Source of the DNA: Bibersteinia trehalosi
Lineage (GTDB): Bacteria > Pseudomonadota > Gammaproteobacteria > Enterobacterales > Pasteurellaceae
Assembly (NCBI RefSeq): GCF_004346205.1
Contig: NZ_SMAM01000001.1
Span: 186,001-250,000, forward strand
DNA length: 64,000 bases
Reading direction: 5' to 3'
The position numbers and the translations under genes were made by a program. Positions 13,927 through 16,227 of this stretch are shown one piece after another. The notes below the pieces were generated by a model. The model was not told where the DNA came from. It saw only the letters and a list, made by a program, of their open reading frames with translations, and did no database searches. The first letter of the stretch is position 1. Every line of letters begins with the position of its first letter.

Positions 13927-14418
13927 ATGGAAAATTTATATATTGATCTACAAATCGCCTGTGAAAACAGCGAAAACTTACCCACTGAACAACAATTCTA
14001 TACTTGGGTACACAAAGCCCTCGCAATGCAAGCAAAAACCGAAGATTTCCCCGAAACAGAAATCACTATTCGCATTGTAGATGAAGCGGAAAGCCACGAA
14101 CTCAATCTGACCTATCGTGGTAAAGACAAACCGACTAATGTGCTTTCCTTTCCGTTTGAAATGCCTGAGGGCGTGGAAGATTTGCCACTACTCGGCGATC
14201 TGGTTATCTGCCGTCAAGTAATGGAAAACGAAGCCAAAGAGCAACAAATTTCCGAAGAAAGCCACTGGGCGCATTTATCCGTACACGGCACACTGCATTT
14301 GCTTGGTTACGATCATATTGAAGAAGATGAGGCGGTTGAGATGGAAAGTCTAGAAACGGAAATTATGATCGCACTGGGGTATGGTGATCCTTATTTAAGT
14401 GAGAAATTGCCTGAATAA
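13927..14418 (+). CDS. ybeY: Endoribonuclease YbeY (rRNA maturation factor)
   Basis: Zinc-dependent single-strand endoribonuclease involved in 16S rRNA 3' processing and 70S ribosome quality control. The metal site [11 protein letters not shown] lies near residues 117-127, preceded by [17 protein letters not shown] and [12 protein letters not shown] chose ATG 13927, which gives [14 protein letters not shown] and 163 residues, close to E. coli (155). A longer open frame from 13705 overlaps moaE and is not credible. The stop overlaps the next ATG (TAATG). Confidence 0.95.
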
Positions 14419-14446
14419 TGCGAAAACTGGTCATCATTAACCAAAC

Positions 14447-14465
14447 GGGCGTACGCAGTACGCCC
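14447..14465 (+). repeat. Intragenic palindrome, copy A (in tmcA)
   Basis: GGGCGTACGCAGTACGCCC: arms GGGCGTAC / GTACGCCC around GCA. In frame it codes Gly-Val-Arg-Ser-Thr-Pro within the N-terminal 16 residues of TmcA. Confidence 0.85.
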
Positions 14466-14788
14466 TCACAACCTTCTATCCAAATTCCCCCACATTTTGA
14501 GCCTATTCCTTTTTCCAATGCCAAATCTCTGCTCGGGAATGAATACCCTTTTGCGATTTATGATATGCGTGCAGAAAATGGTATCCATTTTAATTTAGAA
14601 GCCTTTGCGATTGTGGCGGGGACAATTCAACGTGGTGGCACACTCTATTTGTGTTGCAAGGATTGGGACAACGTAGAAAATACGCTCGATTTGGATAGCC
14701 TGCGTTGGAATGAAGATAATGCGATTTCTACACCGAGATTCTGGGCATTTTTTAAGGTGTTGGTACAGAAATATGGTTTTGAGTGTAG

Positions 14789-14807
14789 GGGCGTATGTTA
14801 TACACCC
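14789..14807 (+). repeat. Intragenic palindrome, degenerate copy B (in tmcA)
   Basis: GGGCGTAT, loop GTT, ATACACCC: the arms pair with one mismatch. It codes Arg-Gly-Val-Cys-Tyr-Thr-Pro. It is preceded by GTAG, like the fuller form of the repeat. It could be coincidence, but it lies 21 bases from copy C and in the same gene. Confidence 0.5.
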
Positions 14808-14827
14808 GAAAAAATGGGCGATATCGT

Positions 14828-14846
14828 GGGCGTACGCAGTACGCCC
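14828..14846 (+). repeat. Intragenic palindrome, copy C (in tmcA)
   Basis: The 19 bases are identical to copy A (GGGCGTACGCAGTACGCCC) and are followed by CTACAA, close to TCACAA after copy A. In frame it codes Gly-Val-Arg-Ser-Thr-Pro-Leu-Gln, in the linker just before the helicase-like domain. Confidence 0.85.
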
Positions 14847-15375
14847 CTACAATTCAATGCACAACAGCAATTTATTCTTAAAAAACTACCGCTTGATGAC
14901 GCCGATATTCATTTAATCACTGCCCCTCGTGGTCGGGGGAAATCTACACTGGCTGGAAAACTTGCCGAGCAACTTTCACAGCAACACAACGTCATCATTA
15001 CCGCACGTTCAAAAGCGGCTTTGCCAAGTTTTTGGCAACAGATTAAAAGTGAAAACATACAATTTTTTGCGCCTGATTATTTATTGCAAGCGGTGCAAAA
15101 AGGTGAAAATGTTGCAAAAACGTGGTTATTTATTGATGAAGCGGCAAGCTTACCCTTGCCTATGTTAAAAGCCTTAACAAATGCGTTTGAAAAAGTGGTG
15201 ATGACGACCACCACGCAAAATTATGAAGGGACAGGGCGTGGATTTGAGTTGAAATTGCCGAAAATGTTGAATAAACCTTTTCAACATTGGACGTTGCACA
15301 CGCCGTTGCGCTGGGGGGAGAATGACCCGTTGGAAGGGTTTATCAATGACTTACTCCTTCTTACCGATGAACAAA

Positions 15376-15401
15376 CTCCCCTCTTTGCTAAAGAGGGGGA
15401 G
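15376..15401 (+). repeat. Palindrome with unequal arms at the tmcA frameshift
   Basis: CTCCCCTCTTT (15376-15386), loop GCT, AAAGAGGGGGAG (15390-15401). The left arm has four C but the right arm has five G, so the extra G that breaks the frame is also the one that breaks the symmetry. Confidence 0.8.
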
Positions 15402-16211
15402 CAGTATTGTGGAAAAAATAACTTTCTACCACTTACTCACCACAGCCCACTACAAAACCACCCCTACCGATCTTCGCCGCTTATTTGATGGCGAAAATCA
15501 GAAGCTATTTGAAATTCGGGAAAATCAGCAGTTGATTGCTGGGGCTTGGGGGATTTTTGAAGGGGGGCTAGATAGAGAGCTGACTCAGGCAATTTGGCGA
15601 GGTGAACGCCGTCCAAAGGGGAATCTCGTTGCACAATATCTTTGTTTTCAGGGCAATTTTCCGCAGGCTTGCCAATTGCGATCTCTTCGGATCTCTCGTA
15701 TTGCAGTAGCCCCTGAAATGCAAGGAAAAGGCTACGGCAAGCGGTTGATTTCTGAGATGATTTTGCAAATTTCAGTGCAAAATCCACCGCTTGATTTTCT
15801 TTCCGTGAGCTTTGGAATGAATGATGAATTACTGAATTTCTGGCAACAATGCGGTTTTCAGCAGGTAGCAATTAGCCAGAATCCTGAAGCCAGCAGCGGT
15901 TTATACAGCGCGATGATGATTTATCCTGTCTCGCTACGAGGAAAAGCGTTTGTTGATCAAGCAAGCGTACAATTCCAACGCAACCAAATTTTGCAAAAAA
16001 ATATAGAATTTCAACCGCTTACTGAGTGGGATTGGCAGAATATTAAGGGATTTATCCGCGCTTCTCGGACATTTACGGCTTGTTTGCCAAGTTTATTGCG
16101 CCTTGCTCAAATAGATAAATTTACTTTTGTGCGAGATTATTTGACGCTGGAAAAACTGGATAAACCACGCCTTCAGCAGTTCAAAACGACATTATGTCAT
16201 TCTTTATATTT

Positions 16212-16227
16212 TTTGAACTAGATCACA
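16212..16227 (+). promoter_or_regulatory. CRP-type site upstream of mglB
   Basis: TTTGA-ACTAGA-TCACA, nine of ten consensus half-site bases (TGTGA N6 TCACA). It overlaps the end of tmcA and lies about 70 bases before the mglB ATG, as expected for a cAMP-controlled sugar uptake gene. Confidence 0.6.

Follow-up and report, generated by a model that had tools for sequence, protein, structure and literature searches.

Palindromic repeats within tmcA

The DNA analyzed here, a 64-kb stretch of the source genome (the window), contains a tmcA gene that is not intact. Its reading frame switches near 15380-15490, giving two overlapping frames (Table 1), whereas most relatives have a single open tmcA frame of about 555-734 residues. 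The best segment of the first part, residues 1-356, is 61% identical to a protein of Mannheimia sp. The protein has three linkers, which we number 1 (N-terminal), 2 (before the helicase domain) and 3 (before the acetyltransferase domain), and the frame changes in linker 3. This change (15378-15490) may mean that the gene is a pseudogene, that its product is split, or that the assembly is wrong here.

Table 1. Positions of the tmcA parts and repeats in the window, and of the RAYT-like reading frame elsewhere in the source genome
Feature	Position	Strand	Evidence or content
tmcA first part, 356 aa, N-terminal and helicase domains	14418..15488	+	ORF; Pfam NAT10_TcmA_helicase 7.1e-43
REP singlet, linker 1	14447-14465	-	exact 19-mer; codons 10-16 (GVRSTP)
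REP inverted pair (REPIN), linker 2	14785-14850	.	66 bp = 22 codons (CRGVCYTP...GVRSTPL)
Left REP of the pair	14785-14807	+	GTAG + GGGCGTATGTTATACACCC, one stem mismatch
Right REP of the pair	14828-14850	-	GGGCGTACGCAGTACGCCC + CTAC; exact 19-mer at 14828-14846
Unrelated repeat tip CCCCTCTTTGCTAAAGAGGGG, linker 3, beside the frameshift	15378..15398	.	genomic copies; hairpin list
tmcA second part, other frame, acetyltransferase and tRNA-binding domains	15322..16221	+	GNAT_acetyltr_2 5.9e-25, tRNA_bind_3 3.9e-08
RAYT-like ORF, 168 aa	C1:419193-419699		Y1_Tnp 30 bits, cut-off 23

The original prediction reported two exact copies of a 19-base palindrome in tmcA and a degenerate third copy, and all three were recovered, the third (14789-14807) being one base off the looser core GGGCGTANNNNNTACGCCC. 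They share the codon phase of the ORF at 14418, and the same peptide, GVRSTP, is read from both exact copies, as had been stated. The claim that the window holds no further copy was also borne out. Allowing three mismatches added none, and shuffled sequences gave a mean of 0.02 matches in the window; therefore, a chance origin was rejected. Ten GC-rich perfect hairpins (arm 8) are present in the whole window, and three of them lie in the ORF at 14418.

The segment in linker 2 is an inverted REP pair (REPIN). It consists of a GTAG head (14785-14788), a core, a 20-base spacer, a second core and a CTAC (14847-14850), and the inverted REPs with their short spacer could form one long hairpin. The predicted RNA fold of 14780-14856 has an energy of −33.7 kcal/mol, and that of linker 1 has −14.1 kcal/mol. 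The two cores start 39 bases apart, compared with 65 bases in four other pairs of the genome. The copy at 14447 lacks a GTAG (or GTGG) head because its CTAC has decayed to TCAC.

The hairpin at 15378-15398, which was absent from the original prediction, has a sequence unlike the 19-mer. Counting this one, the genome has 11 exact copies of its 19-base core, and eight of them are arranged in four facing pairs. The paired CCCTCTTTGCTAAAGAGGG repeats (L322-L329) are separated by gaps of about 110-130 bp; they are MITE-like, and their inner ends resemble AAATCTCCCC.

The repeat family of the source genome

Two descriptions of GTAG-type REPs and REPINs with RAYT list a GTAG head, a palindrome of about 20 bases, many mostly intergenic copies, inverted pairs and a flanked Y1-type transposase gene (PMC2817692, PMC3116915). 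The 19-mer is not absent from the rest of the source genome. A whole-genome search located five exact copies, of which two are those of the window and the others lie beyond it. The looser core, with up to two mismatches, matched 76 sites in the 2.29-Mb genome and a reversed-pattern control matched six, and the family is thus of high copy number and dispersed, like a GTAG-type REP family. Inspection of 60 of the 76 sites, in 32 loci or stretches, placed 50 outside clear gene interiors, where there was no spanning 240-nt open frame, or the site was near the 5' end of a frame, or the frames were short. At the sites inspected, the family is therefore mostly extragenic and the window copies are exceptions. 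The remaining ten sites lie in gene interiors (three in tmcA, five in ftsY and two in a large transporter-like ORF), and the coding copies use differing frames and orientations (GVRSTP, CRGVCYTP, GRMPYAP, VGAYCLRP and GRTQYAP). A coding-only repeat family was rejected because most inspected sites are extragenic and several frames are used. Of the proposed mobile, frame-respecting family, what survives is a dispersed repeat of a mobile kind that is read in frame here; the suggestion that it is specific to coding sequence does not.

The copies in ftsY lie in the N-domain (L154 577-2130; G000:C5:177576-179129), which has three tandem 168-bp units, each with a translated, partly decayed REP pair (GRMPYAPTE / ENVRPSE). 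A 781-aa transporter-like ORF, with a weak match to the HAE3 family, contains an in-frame REP pair with cores 65 bases apart (L153 1523-1606; G000:C4:148822-148905; VGAYCLRPF...CDGRTQYAPTF).

REP cores also flank a RAYT-like ORF on both sides, 13 and 22 bases away from it (419161-419179 and 419722-419740), and a further three cores lie nearby (419050, 419794 and 419930). The encoded protein matches the NCBIfam RAYT model NF047646 (53.5 bits, E 2.3e-14) but stays below its curated cut-off of 80 bits. Judged by their anatomy, the repeats of the source genome form a REP/RAYT system that is presumably active. The palindromes are GTAG-type REP elements with their own RAYT-like gene, not a coding-specific family. 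They resemble the GTAG-type systems in the head, palindrome size, copy number, inverted pairs and flanked Y1-type gene. However, the window copies are intragenic and translated, and the head at 14447 has decayed, which is unlike typical members.

Intragenic repeats of this kind are already known. In PMC3733652, GTAG and CGTC REPs are reported that lie entirely within ORFs, where dimers coding for 20-30 residues are frequent; flexible linkers or loops are suggested as their sites, and in two Xanthomonas species recB carries a REP at roughly matching sites. Its main text makes no mention of tmcA, Pasteurella, Mannheimia, Haemophilus or Actinobacillus. Compared with the intragenic REPs described there, the present case concerns one gene, three linkers, several genera and different REP types. 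The same source equates the intragenic RPE-4 and RPE-6 of Rickettsia with CGTC repeats. The likeness to Rickettsia palindromic elements that had been suggested is apt in how the repeats work, since both are palindromic repeats read in frame in likely functional proteins; judged by sequence, the tmcA of one relative (G102) carries them in frame within an otherwise conserved gene. It fails in the identity of the elements: with GTAG heads and a RAYT-like gene, unlike the CGTC-type RPE-4/6 as described there, the present repeats were rejected as members of the Rickettsia family.

Recurrence in the three linkers

tmcA was found in 121 of 121 family genomes drawn and, in a later complete draw, in 139 of 140, the exception being an assembly that is 81% complete. 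Of the 121 genes, 110 were read, and the 11 omitted were among the lowest-scoring. REP hairpins occur in the linkers of nine of these genes, representing five genera and four sequence types, and the other 101 lack them. Both linkers 1 and 2 are occupied in the source genome (G000) and G041, all three in G102 and G065, and only linker 2 in G008, G046, G070, G064 and G039. The GGGCGTA type is found in G000, G102, G065 and G041, each of which has further copies. The GGACAC type is found in G046, G070, G064 and G039 and in linker 3 of G065; the wider pattern GTAGGGAC..GTCC gave 16-38 forward matches in each of these five genomes (control, 0-1), and individual GGACAC copies were, among the matches listed, in G064 and G039 only. 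G008 has the type GGTGGGTC, which is repeated elsewhere in that genome, and G041 also has the type GGACGGAT, whose exact form was, among the matches listed, only in its tmcA. G065 bears a heavy load of the same REP family (L202-L231; 147 matches to GTAGGGGCGTANNNNNTACGCCC, control 0), with clusters of inverted REP pairs on contig C3, and G039 has a BIME-like cluster of alternating GTAGGGACACGACG... and GTAGGGACGCCACG... REPs (G039:C36:18602-19412).

The tmcA gene of G102 is one open frame of 615 residues that runs through three REP-bearing linkers. In linker 1 it has an inverted pair where G000 has a singlet. The palindromes are kept in both genomes at 73% protein identity, and in linker 2 the two right REPs are set apart by a paired stem change, with the palindrome left intact. 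One copy (L181) occupies tmcA codons 9-16. The repeats are read in different frames and orientations and so yield unrelated peptides (GVRSTPL, GRTQYAPT, RRDTVPVS, TRSVVSLQ and GGSRPTLQ, by type and frame). It is not the case that all relatives have the same residues without palindromy: the residues are missing from most relatives read, and a conserved TmcA motif was rejected for this reason. The linkers of some REP-free tmcA genes hold other palindromes.

The 110 reading frames contain 18 GC-rich perfect hairpins (arm 8, at least 5 GC), 17 of which lie in the three linkers; the linker windows cover 77 of 615 reference residues and were set after the hairpin histogram had been seen. The single hairpin elsewhere aligns upstream of the tmcA start. 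The 17 comprise 11 REPs, three CT-rich repeats of another kind in linker 3 (G000, G091 and G041) and three others in linker 1. The latter (G047, G106 and G053; L033, L071 and L079; genera g10 and g26) have the form ATGCC...GGCAT, another type. Forty shuffles of synonymous codons gave on average 0.95, 0.3 and 0.325 hairpins for the three linkers (sum about 1.6) and 2.45 elsewhere. Without the GC condition there were 42 hairpins, compared with 27-39 in five shuffles; the excess is therefore confined to GC-rich hairpins. Nine hairpins outside the linkers, each in a different further gene, were left out of the REP count (six at the sequence KVVLTTTT and one each in L074, L076 and L135).

Thirty ftsY genes (46,893 nt) contain three GC-rich hairpins, two of which are the REPs of the source genome. 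FtsY was rejected as a second hot spot, as REPs were found in only one of these 30 genomes and the other 29 lack them. In G102, 15 of 17 pattern matches were inspected: four are in tmcA, one in a long ORF is not REP-like, and one further match is near the 5' end of an ORF. None of the 30 matches inspected in G065 (of 147) is within an ORF of at least 450 nt. In sampled stretches, REP-like hairpins overlap an ORF of at least 400 nt in two of 50 cases in G064, three of 36 in G041 and four of 28 in G008, and L317 (G046) stands outside these counts. None of the nine overlaps among the 114 is clearly inside a gene; six are at most 100 nt from the frame start, and the other three fall in frames that measure 408 and 462 nt. 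REPs in coding sequence outside tmcA look rare. The genomes were picked for their tmcA REPs, and the contrast therefore holds within them and not as a family-wide rate.

The predicted tolerance of the sites to insertion agrees with their placement in the N-terminal linker and the linker before the helicase domain, and with a structural model of G102 TmcA (mean pLDDT 84, 24-row alignment), in which the REP-coded residues of all three linkers are in coil. The ten-residue blocks with most REP-coded residues average pLDDT 52-70, compared with 84 overall; other low blocks, at 211-220, 281-290 and 541-550, have no REPs. Among solved structures, 2zpa (E. coli YpfI) is the closest in sequence. Alignment of TmcA across relatives placed the repeats at the linkers, as proposed, but without added length in linker 2. 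Its mean length is 28.9 residues in the nine genes with REPs and 29.0 in 100 genes without them (one zero-length row dropped; Mann-Whitney p = 0.75), and the 22-codon REPIN fills most of a linker 2 of ordinary length. A simple net insertion was rejected because the lengths do not differ. Therefore, a plain insertion of 20 residues is not what is seen, and exchange or trimming is needed: either the length is constrained and the linker was trimmed after insertion, or old linker DNA was replaced by new repeats. No empty site was found in a near-identical relative. Linker 3 ranges from 15 to 93 residues. In a comparison run without the tmcA loci L185 and L201, its DNA in G000, G091, G041, G004, G048 and three genomes of genus g9 matches other loci over 23-50 bases, and the partner locus is often in another genome; several genera are involved.

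In the TmcA tree, the nine REP genes fall in four places: G000 with G102, G065 with G041, three of g9, and G064 with G039. Six REP-free genes of genus g32 form the sister group of the first pair, and the last pair sits in a distant part of the tree; the fork with g42 and g9 is poorly supported as a resolved order. The branch of G000, for which only the first tmcA part was used, is longer than that of G102 (0.46 and 0.20). A test of REP label changes on the tree was not significant (three changes, against 3.5 on average after shuffling; 194 of the 500 shuffles gave as few). The case for independence is therefore made more by repeat types, orientations and frames than by the tree. We claim that, by tree position, REPs appear to have entered tmcA at least three times, and by repeat type more often. 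The recurrence is what is new: REP hairpins of four types lie in the same three tmcA linkers in five genera. Literature searches, which largely did not reach subscription journals, found no paper on REPs in tmcA, nor, supplements aside, any account of several repeat families recurrently occupying three linkers of one gene across genera.

Origin of the linker repeats

We regard RAYT-type copying, with survival of in-frame copies in floppy linkers where the peptide itself is unimportant, as the probable explanation. GTAG-type REPs and REPINs resident in the genome would be copied, most likely by the RAYT-like transposase whose gene they flank, and would land widely across the genome. A copy inside a gene would persist only if it left the frame open and did no harm through the residues it added or exchanged. 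TmcA may offer such conditions in its three flexible linkers, which could thus be colonized repeatedly by each genome's own short repeats; these would then be read simply as linker peptide. The RAYT-like protein presumably moved the REPs, the REP-coded residues are probably neutral, and the hot spot would arise from filtering, not from targeting. Unrelated peptides argue against a peptide function.

Chance palindromes in coding sequence, or a conserved protein motif with no link to mobile repeats, account for some palindromes in tmcA, such as the helicase KVVLTTTT motif in six genes. For the three reported copies this explanation is refuted, because the 19-mer is identical to dispersed genomic copies and other frames are used elsewhere. 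A selected role of the RNA or DNA is harder to dismiss but seems improbable to us. Hairpins at domain borders could promote stepwise folding of the domains by slowing translation or shaping the mRNA, with repeats recruited as ready-made hairpins. Their placement in the N-terminal linker and at the two domain borders that follow, the recurrence of the hairpin while the peptide varies, the predicted fold energies and the paired stem change between G000 and G102 accord with such a role. However, the 101 genes lacking a REP-like linker hairpin argue against any required role, the stem mismatches in G000 (the 14789 copy) and G039 represent decay, and a single compensated pair was seen.

The copying machinery might instead favor a DNA feature of the tmcA linkers, for example, a REP remnant, so that old copies attract new ones. 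G041 and G065, which belong to one genus, carry different repeats at linkers 2 and 3, and a constant linker 2 would be expected if new copies replace old ones. However, linker 3 also holds non-REP repeats, which should need another mobilizer, and no target motif has been demonstrated; we consider such a preference quite unlikely. Copying followed by tolerance, our preferred explanation, has difficulties of its own, among them the sub-threshold RAYT match, the unchanged length of linker 2 and the failure to find an empty site in a near-identical relative. Pure neutrality would erode palindromes, and their retention in G000 and G102 counts against the neutral reading. The variable N-domain of FtsY, so seldom occupied by REPs, suggests that floppiness alone leaves the choice of TmcA unaccounted for. 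The paired stem change and the constant linker length may leave room for something more. The interdomain linkers of TmcA could be a privileged landing site in Pasteurellaceae that is rewritten time and again, with mobile palindromes swapping at near-constant length and the hairpin being kept for a role in translation at domain borders or as a magnet for the next repeat; this broader proposal seems doubtful at present.

For the study of these proteins, linker peptides such as GVRSTP or GRTQYAP should be taken as repeat-derived and not as conserved motifs. tmcA is an unusual natural record of repeats becoming protein. Intragenic REPs have been known as scattered cases, and this gene provides several near-parallel natural experiments in related genera. 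They make it possible to test directly whether repeats turn into protein simply through tolerance or because the hairpin serves a purpose.
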